This document shows positions 24,845-38,390 of a DNA stretch of 46,499 nt, piece by piece. The DNA is from Akkermansia muciniphila (GTDB taxonomy: Bacteria > Verrucomicrobiota > Kiritimatiellia > RFP12 > UBA1067). The stretch spans positions 1 to 46,499 of the forward strand of contig CAMBQV010000003.1 of NCBI GenBank assembly GCA_945870145.1. Reading direction: 5' to 3'. The notes under the pieces are model-generated. The model worked only from the letters and a program-made list of their open reading frames with translations, made no database searches and was not told the DNA's origin. The position numbers were made by a program, and so were the translations under genes. Within the stretch, counting starts at the first letter, position 1. Each line of letters begins with the position of its first letter.

Positions 24845-24962
24845 AATGATTATTCTTTTCGGTTGTTTCAACTGTGAATATATGGTTTAACTATATCATT
24901 CTTTTTAAGAGATTTTCTCGAGATCAAAAATCACTTCTTGCACTTTTTTGTGGACTAGTAAA

Positions 24963-26339
24963 ATGAATAATGAACAGGCATTGTGGCAGCAGGCTATGGA
25001 GCATTTGAAGAGTGTCATTAAGAGTAAAGATCTTTTTGAACGCTGGATCGAAATCATCAAGCCACAGAAGATCAAGGACAATTGTTTTGTCCTGACCGTG
25101 GACAATGATTTTTATCAAGATTGGCTCGAAAAAAATTACAAGAGCCTTATTCTCTCGGCCCTGCAAGCAGCAGGTGCGCCCCAGGAAATGAAGCTCCGTT
25201 TTGATGTCTTACGACCGACCGAAGGCTCTACAGACCAGGAGCCTCTCGACGTCCCTGTGGTGGCGACAAAAAAGCCGCGACTAAAGAGCAACATGCTGGC
25301 AAGCCCCCTGAATCCAATCTTTACTTTTGAGAACTTTGTTACCGGCCCAGCCAATAACTTTGCCCATGCTGCTGCGCTCGGTGCCTCACAAGCCCCTGGC
25401 CGGGCTTACAACCCACTCCTGATCCATGGACAGACTGGAATCGGAAAAACCCATCTGATGCAGGCGGTAGGCCATAGCATTATTCAGAAGCCAGGCATGT
25501 CGGTCTGTTATGTCTCCTCAGAAACCTTCTTGAATGAATATATTGATGCCTTGCAGAAACGGACGATCGTCGACTTTCGAAACCGGTATCGGCGAGCCGA
25601 TGTCCTGCTCGTGGATGATATTCAGTTTCTCGGAGGCAAAGATAGTATCCAAGAGGAGTTTTTCCATACGTTTAATGCTCTCTTTGATGCCCATAAGCAG
25701 ATCATTATGACCAGTGATGTGGCGCCTCAAAAACTAAAAGGCCTTGAGCCTCGCTTAGTTTCTCGCTTTGAATGGGGCATGGTCACCGAGATTGAATCGC
25801 CAGACTTTGAAACCCGTTTAGCGATTCTGCGGTATAAACTGTCCCTGACCAGCGTTAAGTTGCCTGCAGATGTGTTGACCTTTCTGGCAGAGAACATCAA
25901 ATCCAATGTGCGCAGTTTGGAGGGTGCTCTCAAACGAACCATCGCCTTTGCGGATCTTAATAGATCTATGACATTGACTACAGAGATATTGCGCTCCTTG
26001 CTCAAGGATCAGCTCAATAATGAGCGACAAAAGGATATCACTCCTGATGAAATCCAGCGTATTGTCGTTGATTATTTTGATTTGCGTATGGCAGATATGT
26101 CGAGTAAGAAGCGAACGCGTATGTTAGCTGCGCCTCGACAGATCGCTATGTTCCTCTGTCGTAAACTTACCATGCTTTCCTTGCCGGAGATTGCACAATC
26201 CTTTGGTAAAACCCATGCAACCGTTGTTCATGCCTGTAAAACTATTCAGGATCGTTTGCAGCTTGAAAGTGACCTCCGTGACTCTGTCAAACAGCTTGTT
26301 CACCTGTTAGGAAGGGATGCTTCATGTATCAATCTCTAA
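24963..26339 (+). CDS. dnaA: chromosomal replication initiator DnaA
   Basis: A 458-residue initiator that binds DnaA boxes and melts oriC. Domain I (about 1-75) contains LFERWIEIIKP; domain II is a short linker (about 85-115); domain III (about 117-345) has Walker A GQTGIGKT (156-163), Walker B LLVDDIQ (215-221) and the arginine-finger segment LEPRLVSRFEWG; domain IV (about 360-450) ends in the signature helix. That helix reads FGKTHATVVHACKTI, whereas E. coli has FGGRDHTTVLHACRKI: Asp433 and Thr435, which touch bases, are Thr and Ala here. This may go with the TTATNAACA motifs seen around the gene. The track's TTG start (24948) is possible, but I prefer ATG 24963. Confidence 0.97.
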   Translation: MNNEQALWQQAMEHLKSVIKSKDLFERWIEIIKPQKIKDNCFVLTVDNDFYQDWLEKNYKSLILSALQAAGAPQEMKLRFDVLRPTEGSTDQEPLDVPVVATKKPRLKSNMLASPLNPIFTFENFVTGPANNFAHAAALGASQAPGRAYNPLLIHGQTGIGKTHLMQAVGHSIIQKPGMSVCYVSSETFLNEYIDALQKRTIVDFRNRYRRADVLLVDDIQFLGGKDSIQEEFFHTFNALFDAHKQIIMTSDVAPQKLKGLEPRLVSRFEWGMVTEIESPDFETRLAILRYKLSLTSVKLPADVLTFLAENIKSNVRSLEGALKRTIAFADLNRSMTLTTEILRSLLKDQLNNERQKDITPDEIQRIVVDYFDLRMADMSSKKRTRMLAAPRQIAMFLCRKLTMLSLPEIAQSFGKTHATVVHACKTIQDRLQLESDLRDSVKQLVHLLGRDASCINL

Positions 26340-26641: not shown

Positions 26642-27736
26642 ATGAAATTCACTGTGTTACGATCCAAATTTCTTGAAGGTCTGATGACCGTTCAAAATGT
26701 CGTCTCTTCAAAAGGTTCACTTCAGATTTTGTCGAATGCACTTATTCATGTCGAAAACAATCAGATGATGATCACGACGACTGACTTGGATATTTCCATG
26801 CGGTGTATCATTCCCTGTGAAGTTGAAAAGGCAGGAACCACAACATTGCCTATTCGTCGTCTGGTCAGCATCATGAAAGAGTTAAATGACGGACCCGTGA
26901 CGGTTCAAGTTGATGAAGATGATGCAGCAAAATTTCAGAGTGGGTCTTCATTCTTCCGCATCATCGGTCTTCCAGTTCGCGATTTTCCACCGATTCCTGC
27001 AACCGAGGGTAAATTCTGTTATCGCATTGATCAAGGCGTGTTGAAGGAGATGTTGCGTAAGACCAGCTATGCGGCCTCCTTGGATGAAACACGTCGTGTA
27101 TTGAATGGCGTGTTGATGGCTTTCAAGAATAATAAATTGACCATGGTGGCGACAGATGGACGTCGTTTGGCGCTGGTGGATCATGAAGTGGAGTTTCCTG
27201 AGCAGGCTGAAACGGAAATGATTCTTCCGACGAAAGCCGTCAATGAATTGATGCGCGTCCTCTTGAATGAAGGCGAAGTAAAAATTTATGCTCAGAAGAA
27301 TCAGGTTGTCTTTGAAATCGGTAGCACGGTGATGAGTAGCAAGTTAGTGGATGGCGTCTATCCTAACTATCGTCAAGTTATTCCAGCTGGTTGCGATGAA
27401 CGGGTGACCCTCGAACGCGAAGAGCTCTGGAAGGCTGTACGCCGCGTCTCGGTGATGGCAACGGATAAGTCAAATGCGGTACGTTTGACCTTCTCCGCCA
27501 ATCAGCTGACGATCACAATCAGCAGCCAGGAAGTCGGCGAAGGCCGCGAAACCATTCCTGTGAAATATGTTGGTAAAGAAATCTCGATTGTGTTTAATCC
27601 GGAATATGTGATGGACCCCCTCAAGAATATGGATGATGATGAGGTCTATTTTGAACTCAGTGACGGACACAGTCCCGCGCTGCTCAAGTGTAGCGTTCCT
27701 TTCCTGTACGTCCTGATGCCGTTGCGGTTAAATTAA
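26642..27736 (+). CDS. dnaN: DNA polymerase III beta sliding clamp
   Basis: A 364-residue processivity clamp, normal length, that dimerises into a ring on DNA and tethers polymerase III. Three repeated domains of about 120 residues are seen, starting MKFTVLRSKFLEGLMTVQNVVSS, then EMLRKTSYAASLDETRRVLNGVLM, and the C-terminal PVKYVGKEISIVFNPEYVMDPLKN. It ends with the conserved YVLMPLRLN, close to the canonical VVMPMRL that forms the binding pocket for client peptides. AAGGAG lies 10 bp before the ATG. It follows dnaA at the usual distance, but recF and gyrB are not next to it. Confidence 0.97.
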   Translation: MKFTVLRSKFLEGLMTVQNVVSSKGSLQILSNALIHVENNQMMITTTDLDISMRCIIPCEVEKAGTTTLPIRRLVSIMKELNDGPVTVQVDEDDAAKFQSGSSFFRIIGLPVRDFPPIPATEGKFCYRIDQGVLKEMLRKTSYAASLDETRRVLNGVLMAFKNNKLTMVATDGRRLALVDHEVEFPEQAETEMILPTKAVNELMRVLLNEGEVKIYAQKNQVVFEIGSTVMSSKLVDGVYPNYRQVIPAGCDERVTLEREELWKAVRRVSVMATDKSNAVRLTFSANQLTITISSQEVGEGRETIPVKYVGKEISIVFNPEYVMDPLKNMDDDEVYFELSDGHSPALLKCSVPFLYVLMPLRLN

Positions 27737-30374: not shown

Positions 30375-31724
30375 ATGATGTATACGAACGACACGATTGC
30401 GGCCATTGCGACAGCGCCGGGTCCGGCAGGTGTCTGTATCGTACGCATCTCCGGAAACGAGGCGCTCCAGGTCGCTGATGGCCTGGTTCCCTTATCATCG
30501 CATAAACCTAGCAGACATGCGAGCGGAACCTTCTTTTATGCTGACATTGTCCATCCGCGGACAGGCGAAAAGGTGGATGATGTCTTGATCCTAGTCTTTC
30601 GTGCCCCTAGGAGCTTCACAGGCGAAGATGTCGTCGAGATACAAGGACACGGTGGCACCCTGCCTGCGCGGCTCCTCCTGGAGGCTGTGCTGGCTGCTGG
30701 AGCCCGTCTCGCGGAGCCCGGTGAATTTTCCAAGCGTGCCTTTTTAAATGGACGGTTGGATCTTACACAAGCCGAGGCGATCTGCGACTTTATTCAGGCT
30801 AAGTCTGAACGGATGGCGCATGTGGCGCGTGCGCAACTGGATGGCCGGTTGGGTAAGCACATGACCGCCCTTTATGAGGCGGTGCTTGCGCAGGGTGCGG
30901 ATGTGGAACATCAGCTTGACTTTGATGAGGGTGAACTCTCGGAACGGTTTGTAGAGCAGACCACTCAGGCTGTGCAGAAGATCCTTGTGGAACTCTCACA
31001 CGTACTCCAGTCGTGGAACACCGAGGGCCATCTGCTTCGCGAGGGCGCCTTGGTTGTTTTAAGCGGGAAGCCGAACGCTGGTAAATCATCCTTGCTGAAT
31101 GCCCTGCTGGGGCGTAACCGTGCCATTGTTCATCATATACCAGGGACAACCCGTGATGTCATTGAGGAAAATGCCCTTGTCGAGGGACTGCCCATTCGCT
31201 TGGTGGACACCGCAGGATTGCGCGACACTGCGGATGATGTGGAACAGGAGGGAATCCTACGGACGCAGGCGTTGATGAAACAGGCGGATGTGAATCTCCA
31301 TGTTCTGGATGCCACCACGGCCACGCCTGAAGAGGTCGCTGCCACTCCCAGGGATCAGCAATCGATATGTCTCTTGACGAAGTCAGACCTGTTGACTGCT
31401 CCGATCACGCAGCGGGACGGCGTACTTCTCGTCTCCGCCAAAACAGGCGAGGGGCTTGCGGAACTTGGCAAAGCGATTCTCTCCAACCTTGGGGTCTCTC
31501 ACGACGCAGCAGGAATCGAGATCGTGAATCAGCGACATGCGCAGGAAATTACCACAGCCCATGGTTGCGTGGAACGTGCGCTCAGCCTGTTGTACACGCG
31601 CGACCTTGTGCTCGCCGCTAATGAACTTCGCGTGGCGGCTGAAGCTCTGGGTCGTATCACAGGGCGATGCTATTCCGAGGATCTCTTGGAGTGCATCTTC
31701 TCCCGATTTTGTGTTGGTAAATAA
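30375..31724 (+). CDS. mnmE: tRNA uridine-5-carboxymethylaminomethyl GTPase MnmE
   Basis: A 449-residue K+-dependent GTPase that, with MnmG, modifies wobble U34 of several tRNAs. N-terminal formyl-THF-binding domain (about 5-120: DTIAAIATAPGPAGVCIVRISG), a helical domain, and an inserted G domain with G1 GKPNAGKSS, G2 GTTRD, G3 DTAGLRDT and G4 TKSD. The C-terminal CIFSRFCVGK retains the catalytic Cys of the FC(I/V)GK motif. Tandem ATG codons (30375, 30378) leave the exact start open. It is separated from mnmG by 752 bp of AT-rich DNA. Confidence 0.97.
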   Translation: MMYTNDTIAAIATAPGPAGVCIVRISGNEALQVADGLVPLSSHKPSRHASGTFFYADIVHPRTGEKVDDVLILVFRAPRSFTGEDVVEIQGHGGTLPARLLLEAVLAAGARLAEPGEFSKRAFLNGRLDLTQAEAICDFIQAKSERMAHVARAQLDGRLGKHMTALYEAVLAQGADVEHQLDFDEGELSERFVEQTTQAVQKILVELSHVLQSWNTEGHLLREGALVVLSGKPNAGKSSLLNALLGRNRAIVHHIPGTTRDVIEENALVEGLPIRLVDTAGLRDTADDVEQEGILRTQALMKQADVNLHVLDATTATPEEVAATPRDQQSICLLTKSDLLTAPITQRDGVLLVSAKTGEGLAELGKAILSNLGVSHDAAGIEIVNQRHAQEITTAHGCVERALSLLYTRDLVLAANELRVAAEALGRITGRCYSEDLLECIFSRFCVGK

Positions 31725-32117: not shown

Positions 32118-32203
32118 GTATCGCACAAAGCCATAAAACCATGAAGAAGAGAAATATTTTATTTCTTAACTTTCTTTTGTGGCTTCGAGGCTTTGTGCGA
32201 TAC
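32118..32203. repeat. 86-nt imperfect hairpin with 15-bp perfect ends
   Basis: GTATCGCACAAAGCC (32118-32132) and GGCTTTGTGCGATAC (32189-32203) are perfect inverted repeats. The interior is purine-rich on the left and pyrimidine-rich on the right, so the pairing continues imperfectly. A partial relative, ATCGCACAAAGCCACAAAGC, lies near 34753. This looks like a small miniature-element type repeat. Confidence 0.6.
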
Positions 32204-32476: not shown

Positions 32477-34489
32477 ATGGATGTAAACAGAGGAAATATT
32501 GCTTTTGATGTCATCGTTGTCGGCGGTGGCCATGCCGGCTGTGAAGCTGCCTTGGTAAGCGCTCGGATGGGGTGCAAAACCCTCCTGGTCACCAGCTCGA
32601 AGAAGGCCATCGCTAAGATGCCTTGTAACCCATCGATCGGCGGCCTGGCCAAGTCGCACTTGGTCTATGAGCTGGACGCCTTAGGAGGGGAGATGGGAAT
32701 CAATGCCGATCTTTGCGGGATCCAGGCGAAGATGTTGAATGTCAGCCGCGGACCTGCGGTCCAAGCTACCCGGACCCAGTGCGACAAGGAAGTTTACGCT
32801 ACCCGAATGCAAAAGGTGGTCCAGACGACCGCCAATTGCCTCATTCTGGAGGATGAGGTCATCGACCTTGTGATAGAGAATGATCACGTGTCAGGTGTGA
32901 TAACCGCTCAAAACGGTGTGATTTCAGGTGCGACCATCGTATTGACCACGGGAACGGCGTTGGCTGGAAAGATCTTTATTGGTCAGGAGATGGAGGCAGG
33001 AGGAGGAGATGGCCGTTCAGCAGCCACAAAGCTCGCGGAGTCGCTCCGCAAGCGTGGATTTCCCCTGTTTAGACTGAAGACCGGCACGCCACCTCGACTG
33101 ATTGCCAAGAGCATTGATTGGTCCAAGACGGCACCTCAGCCTGGGGATGAACCTCCGCCATTTTTCTCCATTCAAACCAAAATGTTCCACGTGGAACAAT
33201 CGGGTTGTTCTTCAAGCTTAGTTGCGCCTCATCATCAAGGTAGAGACATTCGGGACGCAAATACCTTTTTTAACCTCGAGGATAGGAAATGTTCCACGTG
33301 GAACATTTTGAGACCGTGGACTCCCGGCTCAGACCCGATTCCTTGTTGGTTGACCCATACCACGGAGCAGACGCATGAGATTATTCGTTCAAACCTGAGC
33401 GCCAGCGCGATGTATGGTGGTCTCATTGAAGGTACTGGTGTCCGCTATTGCCCATCGATTGAGGACAAGGTCGTTAAATTTGCAGATGCTACGCAACATC
33501 ACGTCTTTCTGGAGCCAGAGGGAAGGTCCACTGACTGGATCTATCCGAATGGCCTCTCAAATAGTTTGCCCCGTGCGGTACAAGAGGCGTTTGTCCGTAG
33601 CATTCCAGGTCTCGAGCTGGCTGAGTTTGCGCAATATGCCTATGCTATCGAATATGATGCCGTTGATGCTCGGGATTTACTTCACACCTTGGAGAGTAAG
33701 CGTGTGGCCGGACTCTACTTCGCCGGGCAGGTTAATGGCACAACCGGTTACGAAGAGGCTGCAACCCAGGGATTCATGGCAGGAGCCAATGCCGCGCTCC
33801 GTGTCCAAGGTCGCGAACCCTTTGTGTTGAGTCGTCAAGACGCCTATATCGGCGTGATGATCGACGACCTGGTCACAAAAGGCACCAACGAACCCTATCG
33901 CATGTTTACCTCGCGTGCGGAACGACGGTTAATACTGAGACAAGACAATGCGCGGTACCGGTTGCTTTCAGCAGCTGACATGTTGGGCGTCGCTCCAGCG
34001 GCTTGTAGGCAACAGACTAAGGCCTTTGAAATCGAGATTTCTGCTGAGCTGGAACGCTTGGCCTCGCATCGGGTCGAGGGACAGACACTCTTTTCCCTGC
34101 TTTCGCGTCCAGGTATGCGTTACGCAGATATCCCTAAACGGAATAACGGAATAATGGAATCATGGAATACAGGGGAAGGAGTGGTGACAACCGGTTCCGC
34201 CCAATCCCATCATTCCATTGATGTCATTGATCAGATAGAGCTCCGGGTTAAATATGCCGGATACATTGCCCAAGAGGAACGGGTCGCGTTAAAGGCCAAA
34301 GGCCAGGATTCAATTAAGATCCCAGGATGGCTGGACTATTGGAAGATTCCGGCGTTACGTTACGAGTGCCGCGAGAAGCTTTCCAAGATCAAGCCCGAGA
34401 ACCTTGGGCAGGCAGCTCGTATCCCTGGCGTCAACCCTCCGGATATCGCCGTCCTCGCACTCACCATCAAACGCGGCCACCATGTATAA
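32477..34489 (+). CDS. mnmG: tRNA U34 modification FAD enzyme MnmG with two insertions
   Basis: A 670-residue partner of MnmE. FAD-binding start [16 protein letters not shown] (10-25), [22 protein letters not shown] (50-71), RLKTGTPPR (199-207), [27 protein letters not shown] and the C-terminal helical domain ([15 protein letters not shown]) are all present. E. coli MnmG has 629 residues. Two extra segments account for the surplus: about 45 residues within 233-287, encoding two parS-type palindromes, and about 16 residues near 554-585, encoding an imperfect palindrome related to the repeat behind the gene. Both keep frame and fall between conserved blocks. The Shine-Dalgarno is weak (GAGAGAA). 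The enzyme is probably functional, since all core motifs remain. Confidence 0.95.
33183..33198. promoter_or_regulatory. parS-type centromere site 1, inside mnmG
   Basis: TGTTCCACGTGGAACA, a perfect 16-bp palindrome equal to the known chromosomal parS consensus (TGTTNCACGTGNAACA) bound by ParB. In mnmG it is read as codons spanning M-F-H-V-E-Q. It lies in a segment absent from ordinary MnmG. Confidence 0.85.
33290..33305. promoter_or_regulatory. parS-type centromere site 2, inside mnmG
   Basis: A second identical TGTTCCACGTGGAACA, 107 bp from the first and in a different reading frame (C-S-T-W-N). Two identical 16-mers translated differently in one gene indicate selection on DNA. Confidence 0.85.
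34153..34219. repeat. imperfect palindromic element inside mnmG
   Basis: AATGGAATCATGG (34153-34165) and CCATCATTCCATT (34207-34219) pair with one mismatch around a 41-nt loop. The words resemble the GGAATxxTGGAATxxGGG repeat at 34531-34561 and its partner at 34645-34682. Confidence 0.5.
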
Positions 34490-34530
34490 AGATTTCGCGA
34501 ATATGTGGGCTACAGCTTGCCCATAACTTC

Positions 34531-34682
34531 AATGGAATGTTGGAATATGGGAATGATGGGGAAAGCCTGTGTGCTATACTGGTGTGCAGGCGTCTTCGCC
34601 TGCACAAGTACGGGCGAGGACGCCCGTACACCGGTTTTTAAGCACCCCATTCTTCCAGTATTCCACCATCCCATTATTCCCT
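34531..34682. repeat. nested inverted repeat with two internal palindromes
   Basis: Outer arms are GGAATGTTGGAATATGGG and its imperfect complement near 34650-34680 (CAGTATTCCACCATCCC). Inside, GGTGT...ACACC (34581-34632) encloses GTGCAGGCG-TCTT-CGCCTGCAC and GTACGGGCG-AGGA-CGCCCGTAC. The inner part has the same doublet design as 12161-12221 and 42251-42308. Confidence 0.6.
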
Positions 34683-34893
34683 TCCAAGTTACCAGTCAGT
34701 TTATTCCCGGGGCCCCGGGTGGCGCGATTGTCTTTATAACTTGCCCACTATATATCGCACAAAGCCACAAAGCCATAAAGGAATCCAAGAACTTAATTTT
34801 CATGAAAGAACTTCCAGAATATTAATGATTTTGATTAGCTAAGATTATGCGACACAAAATTTCGAAACCGCGATTGGCTTATTGTCTTTCAAC

Positions 34894-35327: not shown

Positions 35328-36341
35328 GTGCAACCCATTCGGCCTCGACTTGCGGTGACGCTTGGCGACCCTGCAGGAGTGGGGCCGGAATTGGTGTTGC
35401 GGTTGCTTGCGGATGAGCAGGTCGCCGCTCAAGGCCAACTGGTTGTCTACGGGAGCTCAATTCTCGCAGTGCGTGTCGCGGAAGCGGCGCGCATTTCTTT
35501 TTCCTCACAGCAGATACCGAATGGTCATGAATGGGTTGAAATACCCTTTTCCGAGGCCGCAACTATCCAGCCCGGACACGTTCAAGCGGCCTGCGGACGA
35601 CAAGCCTTGGCCTGCATTGAAGAGGCGACTCGGGATGTGATGGCGAAACAGGCGAACGCCCTGGTGACCGGGCCCATCAACAAGGAGTCCCTTCGCTTGG
35701 CGGGTGTCCATTTCCCAGGGCATACCGAACTGCTGGCGCATCTGACCCAGAGCTCGATTGAACCCTGCATGGCCTTTTTTGCAGGTGTGGATCGCCTCAA
35801 ATCAACCTTTCCGATGGTCAGTTTGGTCACCATCCATGAGCCGCTCGCCAAAGTTTCGTCCTTGCTGACTGTGGAACGTATTGCGTCGGTCATTGCCCGG
35901 ACTGATGAAGCTTGCCGGAAACGTGGTCTTCGGGAGCCCAGGATCGGCGTCCTTGCCTTTAATCCCCATGCCAGCGAAGGCGGACTCTTTGGCGATGAGG
36001 AGCGACTCGCGATCCAGCCTGCTATCCGTCTTGCACAGGAGAGGGGCATTCAAGCTTTCGGCCCTCTGATCCCTGATACAGCCTTTTTGGAGAAATATGA
36101 TGCGTTAGTGGCGATGTATCATGACCAGGGACTGATTCCCTTTAAAATGGCGGCCTTTGATTCGGGTGTCAATGTCACGCTCGGTCTCCCGATCATCCGA
36201 ACCTCCCCGGATCATGGTACAGCTTTTAAGATTGCCTGGCAGGGGGTTGCAAAGGTTGGAAGTTTTAAAAACGCGCTCCTGCTCGCGGCTCAACTGGCTA
36301 CGCCTAATCAGACGAGCGAAAAGCCCTGCTGTTCCAGATAA
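35328..36341 (+). CDS. pdxA: 4-hydroxythreonine-4-phosphate dehydrogenase
   Basis: A 337-residue NAD-dependent enzyme of pyridoxal-phosphate synthesis (DXP-dependent route). Conserved landmarks: LAVTLGDPAGVGPEL (8-22), VTGPINKESLRLAG, the metal-binding His in FPGHTELLA, FNPHASEGGLFGDEE, AMYHDQGLIPFK with the second His, and RTSPDHGTAF with the third. Length is typical. The start is GTG, 4 bp after the CBM48 gene. Its 3' end overlaps the convergent ispH gene by 34 bp. Some PdxA-like proteins act in other catabolic routes, but the pattern here is that of true PdxA. Confidence 0.95.
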   Translation: MQPIRPRLAVTLGDPAGVGPELVLRLLADEQVAAQGQLVVYGSSILAVRVAEAARISFSSQQIPNGHEWVEIPFSEAATIQPGHVQAACGRQALACIEEATRDVMAKQANALVTGPINKESLRLAGVHFPGHTELLAHLTQSSIEPCMAFFAGVDRLKSTFPMVSLVTIHEPLAKVSSLLTVERIASVIARTDEACRKRGLREPRIGVLAFNPHASEGGLFGDEERLAIQPAIRLAQERGIQAFGPLIPDTAFLEKYDALVAMYHDQGLIPFKMAAFDSGVNVTLGLPIIRTSPDHGTAFKIAWQGVAKVGSFKNALLLAAQLATPNQTSEKPCCSR

Positions 36342-37540
36342 CGGACGGCCTGTTCGAGAAAATCCTCAGGCGTCGAGGCTCCGCTGGTGACCCCCAGGGA
36401 GTGATAAGGACTCCAATCTGTATGCAGGAGCTCGGAAAGGTCGCTGACCAAAACAGCCTCTGAACCTGCTGCCTGAGCGGTCTCCACCAGCCGTTGACTG
36501 TTGGAACTGTTGGCCGAACCTAGGACAATAACACACGCGCAGTGGTGTGCTAAATCCTTCACCGCCCGCTGACGGTCACGAGTTGCATAACAGATGTCTG
36601 TATGGGGAGGGGAGACAAGCTGGGTGTATCGGCTCCGCAGGGCAGCCATGACTTCCGCAACCTGGGATTCGCCGAGTGTGGTCTGGGTCACTACGGCAAT
36701 GGGACGGTCTAGCGGAAGGTCGAGTCGCCCCACCTCTTCTGCGTTTTCAACGACATGGACACGCTCTGGAGCCTCCCCGACCACGCCGATGACCTCTTCG
36801 TGGTTCCGATGGCCGATGCAGACGATCGCGATTCCCGTGGAGGCAAAGCGCTTGACCTCGTCATGCACCTTGGCGACAAAGGGGCAGGTCGCATCAATGA
36901 CCGTCAGGTTGCGGGAGGCGGCCTCCTGACGGACTTTTGGCGAGACCCCATGAGCTGAAAAAAGGAGCTTGGCGCCCTCCGGGACATCCTCCACGCATTT
37001 GACAAAATGTAGTCCCATGGACGTGAGACGTGTGACAACATGCTGGTTATGAACAATCTCGTTGAGACAGAAGATCGTTTCGTTCCCGCTCTTTTGCTCG
37101 AGCGTCTTCTCCGCCATGTGAATCGCCCGCGCGACACCCGTACAAAAGCCATGGGGCTGAGCAATAAAAAGACTGTTGAAGCCCGAACCCTGATCCTCTC
37201 CTAGCTCATACCCATCAGAAGGCTCTTCGTCCTGGAAGAGCGTGGGATCATCCTGTTCGAGCGACCTCAGGATCTGCTCGGCAGGAATCGCCGTTTTCTT
37301 TTGCGTGTTGCACGTTTGACATGCCGGCACGATATTGCCTTTTGTACTGGTACCACCACGCGCGACCGGCACGATGTGATCCATGGTGATGTCTTCGGAC
37401 GCGACCTTCTTCTTGCAGTAATGACAGACCCCAGCCTGCCGCTGTTGTTGCCACCAGACGCTTTTTCGTAAGGCTTTCGCCTTCTCTCGCTCCCGTTTGC
37501 TGTGATCGGGATCGCTCGGACTGTCAATCCACTCGCTCAT
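36308..37540 (-). CDS. ispH: HNH-domain/IspH fusion: 4-hydroxy-3-methylbut-2-enyl diphosphate reductase
   Basis: A 410-residue protein. Residues about 25-85 form an HNH nuclease-type zinc module: Cys39-x2-Cys42, the catalytic DHIVP (Asp54-His55), the GGTSTKGNIVPAC segment and Cys74-x2-Cys77. After an acidic linker (about 92-122) comes a full IspH: Cys133 in GFCTGVARA, HNQHVV, the second cluster Cys in DATCPFV, GHRNHEEVIG, TQTTL, the third Cys in DICYATRDRQ, and GSANSSNSQRL. IspH makes IPP and DMAPP in the MEP pathway with a [4Fe-4S] cluster. No stop, frameshift or internal Shine-Dalgarno separates the halves. ATG 37540 overlaps the end of prmA by 17 bp; the track's longer start runs inside prmA. 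Confidence 0.93.
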   Translation of the reverse strand: MSEWIDSPSDPDHSKREREKAKALRKSVWWQQQRQAGVCHYCKKKVASEDITMDHIVPVARGGTSTKGNIVPACQTCNTQKKTAIPAEQILRSLEQDDPTLFQDEEPSDGYELGEDQGSGFNSLFIAQPHGFCTGVARAIHMAEKTLEQKSGNETIFCLNEIVHNQHVVTRLTSMGLHFVKCVEDVPEGAKLLFSAHGVSPKVRQEAASRNLTVIDATCPFVAKVHDEVKRFASTGIAIVCIGHRNHEEVIGVVGEAPERVHVVENAEEVGRLDLPLDRPIAVVTQTTLGESQVAEVMAALRSRYTQLVSPPHTDICYATRDRQRAVKDLAHHCACVIVLGSANSSNSQRLVETAQAAGSEAVLVSDLSELLHTDWSPYHSLGVTSGASTPEDFLEQAVRYLEQQGFSLV

Positions 37541-38390
37541 GCTTTTTAAAAAGTCCTGTCCGCCAGTTTTCAATACGAAGCGACTCCACCTCTTGCATTC
37601 CCAGCGCCTCATACGCCGCCTTAACGCCGTCATATTGTTCTACCAGAATACCCGACACAATCAGACGGGAGGAGAGGGACGCAATAATCTGCGGTGCAAA
37701 TTGGATGAGCACCGGCGCCAGAATGTTGGCGACCACGATGTCCGCAGGCGGATAGGGGTGGGAGAGGTCATCAATAGTAATGGGGATGGAGACGTTGTTG
37801 ATTTCAGCGTTTTCGTCAGAGACCTTTTTGCAGTCCGGATCATTATCAAAGCCGCGCACATCCTTGAAGCCCAATAATGCCGCGCCGATAGCCAGAATAC
37901 CTGAGCCGCAACCCATATCGAGCACCGAGCGGTTCACGTTTTCGGCGGCCAGCTGATCCAGGAATCGGAGACAGCCTTGAGTTGTCGCATGCTTGCCGGT
38001 ACCGAAGCTGAGACCGGGATCGAGCGTAATCACCACCTCGCCGGGTTTCGCCTCATATTTTTCCCAGGAGGGACGCACCACGATGCGATCAGAAATTTTT
38101 TCCACATGGAAGAAGCGCTTCCAGGCTTCGGCCCAGTCCGCGCGCGCGAGTGTGGAGAGCTCGGGCTTTAACGCCGGCAGGCCAGCCAGTTCGGCGGCTT
38201 GTTGGAGTGATTGGCAGACGCTCTCCACTTGCGAGGCATCTTCCAAAAAGACATCGAGGCGGCAGACCTTGGTCTCCACGTCAAACCACGCTGTCGGCGT
38301 AAAGACATCCGAGTCCAGCAGTTCAAATAGGGCGTCAACGTCTCCTTCCGCAATTGCGCAGGAGACAACAGTCAGAGTGTCAGGTATCAT
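37524..38390 (-). CDS. prmA: ribosomal protein L11 methyltransferase
   Basis: A 288-residue enzyme that methylates ribosomal protein L11. N-terminal recognition domain (about 1-105), then DPGLSFGTGKHATTQGCLRFL (about 125-145), the SAM motif LDMGCGSGILAIGA, an acidic loop GFDNDPDC and VVANILAPVLIQFAP (catalytic loop NILA). Length is normal. The track starts at TTG 38396; I use ATG 38390. The stop overlaps the start of the HNH-IspH gene, indicating one transcript. Confidence 0.94.
   Translation of the reverse strand: MIPDTLTVVSCAIAEGDVDALFELLDSDVFTPTAWFDVETKVCRLDVFLEDASQVESVCQSLQQAAELAGLPALKPELSTLARADWAEAWKRFFHVEKISDRIVVRPSWEKYEAKPGEVVITLDPGLSFGTGKHATTQGCLRFLDQLAAENVNRSVLDMGCGSGILAIGAALLGFKDVRGFDNDPDCKKVSDENAEINNVSIPITIDDLSHPYPPADIVVANILAPVLIQFAPQIIASLSSRLIVSGILVEQYDGVKAAYEALGMQEVESLRIENWRTGLFKKHERVD

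Follow-up and report, generated by a model that had tools for sequence, protein, structure and literature searches.

We analysed a 46,499-nucleotide stretch of DNA (the window), which carries dnaA, dnaN, mnmE and mnmG (gidA) on the forward strand and, within the mnmG reading frame, two exact copies of a 16-bp palindrome that are putative parS sites. The features needed for what follows are:

24948..26339, forward strand: dnaA (TIGR00362, 511 bits), adjoining the local GC-skew minimum, origin region
26642..27736, forward strand: dnaN (TIGR00663, 310 bits)
30375..31724, forward strand: mnmE, the partner gene upstream of mnmG (NF003661, 402 bits)
32477..34489, forward strand: mnmG (gidA), 670 codons, host of the putative parS sites (TIGR00136, 737 bits; Foldseek of the structural model)
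33182..33340, forward strand: extra MnmG loop, residues 236-288, lacking in MnmG of other phyla and holding both putative parS copies (pLDDT below 50; alignment break; hypervariable in relatives)
33183..33198, no strand assigned: putative parS copy 1, TGTTCCACGTGGAACA, read M-F-H-V-E-Q (exact match; place conserved in relatives)
33290..33305, no strand assigned: putative parS copy 2, TGTTCCACGTGGAACA, read C-S-T-W-N (exact match; place conserved in relatives)

Scanning the window recovered TGTTCCACGTGGAACA without mismatch at 33183-33198 and 33290-33305, with starts 107 bp apart, just where an earlier note on this DNA had placed a pair of identical 16-mers inside mnmG. Translation confirmed that the copies are read in different frames, giving MFHVEQ at copy 1 and CSTWN at copy 2, as the note had also claimed. 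When up to three mismatches were allowed, the window held three matches against 0.18 expected, the third being weak. The flanks shared by both copies extend them to a perfect 21-nt inverted pair. The 16-mer itself is a perfect palindrome of 16 bp that lies two mismatches from the parS consensus TGTTTCACGTGAAACA, as used in PMC10197239. The draft genome to which the window belongs (2.43 Mb, 162 contigs) has these two exact copies only, both in mnmG (2/2), and a search for further parS copies therefore returned no more exact ones; copies this few and unscattered are what is expected of a chromosomal parS. Noc-type sites have the sequence ATTTCCCGGGAAAT. The sites described here have the core CACGTG and the ParB of the window genome reaches 218 bits on TIGR04285, for which the cut-off is 315, so that neither site nor protein is of the Noc/NBS kind.

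The host gene is a recognisable mnmG. With Foldseek, the MnmG model matched the GidA/MnmG structures of Aquifex, E. coli and Chlorobium, with E values down to 5e-57. The segment from TGTPPR to the cysteine of IPC spans 83 codons in the window, against mostly 37-39 codons, free of parS, in about 78 MnmG genes of other phyla (contig-scan loci, mostly Firmicutes, which served as the outgroup for loop length). This agrees with the roughly 45 residues beyond the E. coli-type protein that had been estimated from the sequence. In an AlphaFold2 model built on a shallow alignment of 15 sequences (the window and fetched loci), residues 236-288 have pLDDT below 50 and the rest is mostly a confident MnmG fold, and the alignment of the window protein to MnmG in the PDB is interrupted at residues 235/281. 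The insert is thus predicted to be disordered, and the model lends support to disorder rather than proof of it. Bypass or splicing of the insert was considered and rejected, because in the genes that could be read the frame continues unbroken through the loop.

We then compared the locus across the order of the window in a sample of 145 genomes, most of them draft bins of related species, with the exact 16-mer present in 88 and a match to the mnmG model in 127. The mnmG loci were taken from 102 genomes and the loop could be delimited in 98. Counting as a loop site any sequence within one mismatch of any of three palindromic variants, 95 of the 98 readable genes have a parS-type site in the mnmG loop. 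The loops range from 40 to 310 codons and contain one to seven sites each, with 84, 100 and 33 sites in the three frames. Of the 187 exact copies present in these genomes, the fetched mnmG locus accounts for 183, the mnmG reading frame for 176 and the loop for 168. Among the 43 genomes from which no mnmG was retrieved, only two (G015 and G069) have the 16-mer, and its absence therefore tracks mnmG missing from the assembly (Fisher p ~2e-29 for 16-mer against mnmG presence, a statistic that ignores relatedness). The identical arrangement was found in two database records (L035 and L084), the loop of L035 being that of G105, a member of the window's family. The loops without a site number three of the 98 (G024, G042 and G048). 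G048 (L128) has an ordinary short mnmG loop lacking a site and four exact parS copies elsewhere in its genome, which represents either a relocation or a contaminant contig.

A mobile palindromic element, similar to the Rickettsia palindromic element, could in principle have entered the gene in frame and resemble parS by chance. Such an event has a local precedent, since a different short repeat, which has inverted copies downstream of the gene, did enter mnmG in frame at 34145-34230. The 16-mer, however, is not interspersed, as all its exact copies in the window genome are in mnmG and none in an unrelated gene, and its orthologous position is retained across families, which makes this origin exceedingly improbable. 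The second in-frame MnmG insertion (34145-34230, residues ~557-584, pLDDT below 50 at residues 558-577) is a short interspersed repeat with inverted copies just 3' of mnmG at 34523-34546 and 34655-34683, and looks like a palindromic element that invaded coding sequence.

Several observations indicate that the sites in the loop are maintained as DNA. Across 31 pairs of relatives, identity was 95.5% at nucleotides aligned to exact sites and 73.0% in the remainder of the loop, a difference that is partly biased because the sites were picked by their sequence. Within the sites, phenylalanine is encoded by TTC in 100/100 cases, glutamate by GAA in 100/100 and histidine by CAC in 104/109; elsewhere in the same mnmG genes the codons of those residues are used about equally, each in about half of cases. 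The peptides FHVE, STWN, VPRGT and VSTWK alternate at one loop position, and outside the sites there is no conserved peptide. That one DNA sequence is read in three frames is the clearest sign of selection at the DNA level. The comparison with relatives proposed in the earlier note thus came out as its reading anticipated, with the DNA sites kept, the intervening peptide varying in both length and sequence, and all three frames in use. Could the insert instead be selected as protein, as an added domain or interaction motif of MnmG, with DNA identity as a by-product? In favour of this, the loop never breaks the reading frame and nearly all relatives in the class retain it, but the peptides at the same place differ, their lengths run from 40 to 310 codons, disorder is predicted and the codons within the sites are fixed. 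We consider selection on the protein to have almost no chance of being the explanation.

The genome of the window encodes both partners of a parS site, as a search for parAB revealed. Its one canonical ParB (contig C15) was found at E 6e-54, scores 182.9 bits on TIGR00180 and has a GERR box and a helix-turn-helix (HTH); the nearest solved chains are ParB/Spo0J. A Soj-type ParA of 262 aa (E 2e-59) is encoded on contig C78 and not beside parB. Taken together, ParB is present, the 16-mers are not scattered and what is conserved in the insert is the DNA sites and not the protein, and none of the three outcomes named beforehand as contrary to a centromere in mnmG (loss of ParB, scattered copies, or an insert conserved only as protein) arose. 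In the complete genome of G219, from the same class, parS lies at 1.37 Mb, parA at 2.14 Mb and parB at 2.71 Mb, each more than 0.5 Mb from the others. The parB genes of the window genome (L004, contig C15) and of L324 stand outside any parAB operon, with parA on a different contig. In a sister species, parB has an argC-like upstream neighbour and a cardiolipin-synthase-like gene downstream on the opposite strand.

Changes in the sites are matched by changes in ParB. Genus g2 has no consensus site; its loop repeats V-S-T-W-K two to six times, the underlying DNA being GTTTCCACGTGGAAAC, and exact copies of GTTTCCACGTGGAAAC are at mnmG in 24/24 instances, in eight genomes. The genomes G006, G017, G087 and G107 have TGTGCCACGTGGCACA, or a version one mismatch away from it, at mnmG only, accounting for 9/9 copies of the TGTGCCAC type. 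In the variant sites the two half-sites were altered jointly every time. In the ParB alignment of the order, with the register of residue 178 taken from alignment to 6t1f, genomes with TGTTCCAC have asparagine at the position matching Caulobacter N178 in 30/31 cases; the one exception (G025) probably reflects a paralogue that the search picked up. Genomes with the TGTGCCAC half-site have histidine there (N178H, in the recognition helix) in 4/4 cases from two families, and those with the GTTTCCAC half-site have one additional residue in the ParB HTH turn in 6/6. N178 is a parS-contacting residue that both ParB and Noc conserve (PMC7383237). At the level of sequence, this co-variation links the sites in mnmG with recognition by ParB. 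It resembles the ParB/Noc specificity switch, in which a palindromic site and HTH residues likewise shift together (PMC7383237), but here the changes are an HTH insertion and a substitution at position 178, which ParB and Noc have in common, and the sites stay in mnmG, whereas NBS is another palindrome.

The same evidence bears on whether the palindromes chiefly serve to regulate mnmG expression, through ParB acting as a repressor or roadblock, or through an RNA hairpin formed by the repeated palindromes, and not segregation. Pairing between the two copies is possible in the mRNA (MFE z -3.7), and in some species ParB can influence genes near parS (PMC7022226). Against this, mnmG genes with a single site occur, complementarity beyond the 16-mer barely exceeds that of shuffled partners, the co-variation with the ParB HTH requires recognition of DNA, and the sites mark the origin even where it is far from dnaA. 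We therefore regard regulation as the main role to be very unlikely, and an RNA hairpin function was rejected, since complementarity outside the 16-mers is close to that of shuffled sequences. A coupling of the two processes is a somewhat speculative and doubtful addition: ParB loaded in the mnmG coding sequence might modulate transcription of the gene, or this transcription might modulate ParB loading, and tRNA modification and growth rate would thereby be tied to segregation.

The position of the sites relative to the origin was assessed by GC skew. In the window, the cumulative skew minimum falls at dnaA/dnaN, at 24-27 kb and 6-8 kb from the putative parS sites. The earlier note had described an origin setting for mnmG, and this stands in part: dnaA and dnaN are nearby and at the skew minimum, but an oriC between mnmE and mnmG did not hold up, as strict DnaA boxes (TTATNCACA) were not found between these two genes, and that candidate was dropped. 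In G219, 21 kb separate parS from dnaA, and the sign change of the skew, between 1.34 and 1.42 Mb, falls in the same place. The complete genome of G225 (L284) has dnaA at position 31 and parS/mnmG at 2.155 Mb; in twenty 20-kb samples its skew was negative up to 2.04 Mb, positive from 2.40 Mb and mixed between. With the sign change thus lying in the interval 2.04-2.40 Mb, the origin of G225 is placed in the mnmG region, with dnaA near the terminus. The sites thus cluster at the origin as parS does, by the skew minimum in the window and by the skew flip in G219 and G225. A Hi-C study with A. muciniphila among its species observed clusters of parS at the origin and remarked that the origin is not invariably close to dnaA (PMC10197239).

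Beyond the order, most mnmG loops in other orders of the class have one to three sites, and further families of the phylum commonly have one site in this loop, mostly in the F-H-V-E frame. In family f21 (L287, L205 and L210; complete genomes of 2.7-3.3 Mb) there is a single site in mnmG at codon ~548. Both the 16-mer, anywhere in the genome, and the enlarged loop are missing from f19, f25, f27 and some other families. Among the matches listed for the phylum sample, the exact copies are all at mnmG or within ~1.4 kb of it. The proposal of a centromere in mnmG can therefore be refined to an arrangement much older than the genus, spanning several families and classes, with multi-site expansion typical of the window's class. 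The most economical history, which we infer from this distribution, is that parS has long resided in mnmG within the phylum, was later re-sited in certain lineages and expanded in the class of the window. The f21 site at codon ~548 is close to the position of the second MnmG insertion in the window.

This distribution is also what weighs against regarding the sites as ordinary intragenic parS, by which the centromere would be real but mnmG would have been chosen for its proximity to the origin, the loop would be incidental and there would be no dedicated, expanded host. Sites in coding sequence are normal for parS, with 9/10 P. aeruginosa sites predicted to be of this kind (PMC4368675); moreover, Firmicutes have parS downstream of mnmG, and the f21 site in mnmG is at a different codon. 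Chance, however, should scatter sites over the genes around the origin, whereas a single gene, and mostly a single loop, has almost all of them. The distance from mnmG to dnaA varies from a few kb to 2 Mb with the sites still in mnmG. Long loops occur with sites, and the number of sites grows with loop length (Spearman 0.34 in the order sample). On balance, an incidental loop is rather unlikely.

It is very likely that the two sites are chromosomal parS and that a disposable loop of MnmG houses a working ParABS centromere, binding by ParB being deduced from sequence comparison. ParB, encoded elsewhere, would nucleate on the mnmG sites and with ParA segregate the nearby origin, as in the general ParABS model, from which spreading as a CTP clamp and loading of SMC are also borrowed. 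The host loop, disordered and probably at the surface, would tolerate nearly any peptide, presumably with neutral effect on MnmG. Since the loop may accept almost any peptide, the 16-mers could therefore be selected as DNA, duplicated, shifted in frame and changed together with ParB, and the enzyme core would remain constrained.

Many elements of this system are familiar. As in the chromosomal ParABS of B. subtilis, C. crescentus and P. aeruginosa, there is a 16-bp palindrome with a CACGTG core, a ParB with GERR box and HTH, a Soj-type ParA and sites at the skew-defined origin. In those species, however, parA, parB and parS are clustered, whereas here they are far apart (complete genome of G219) and nearly all sites are in one gene, mostly in one loop, throughout the order. 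The intragenic parS of P. aeruginosa likewise lie in coding sequence, where mutating them needs synonymous changes (PMC4368675), but they are spread over nine genes, in contrast to the variable loop of a single gene with three frames in use and changes in copy number. In the Firmicute origin region, parS is ~2-6 kb from mnmG in many fetched outgroup loci; there, however, the loop of mnmG has just 37-39 codons and no parS, and the sites are in the neighbouring region. Intragenic parS is thus known, and what appears to be new is that the centromere is fixed in a single gene over a large part of a phylum, in a variable host loop and with paired changes in ParB. We met no description of parS in mnmG in the literature searched, which mostly excluded subscription journals, and an earlier account may exist.

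These findings locate the centromere in a little-studied and mostly uncultured branch of bacteria, and suggest that a centromere can persist for a very long time inside one coding gene, with a disordered protein loop as its host. The mnmG loop is in effect a natural record of copy gain, frame change and half-site change with matching ParB, so that co-evolution can be tested directly. In Verrucomicrobiota, mnmG/parS may serve as a gene-based origin finder where dnaA misleads. There is also a warning here for alignments of MnmG and analyses of coding evolution in these groups, which include segments that are probably selected as DNA.

Two further features of the window were noted. A repeat of the TATCGCACAAAGCCA type, ~28-31 nt long, flanks mnmG in both orientations, at 32119-32146, 32172-32202 and 34753-34783. 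The open reading frame at 36308-37633 joins an HNH-type stretch (CHYCKKKVASEDITMDHIVPVARGG), judged by eye, to an IspH-like protein (LytB), and is either an unusual fusion or a frame running through two genes.
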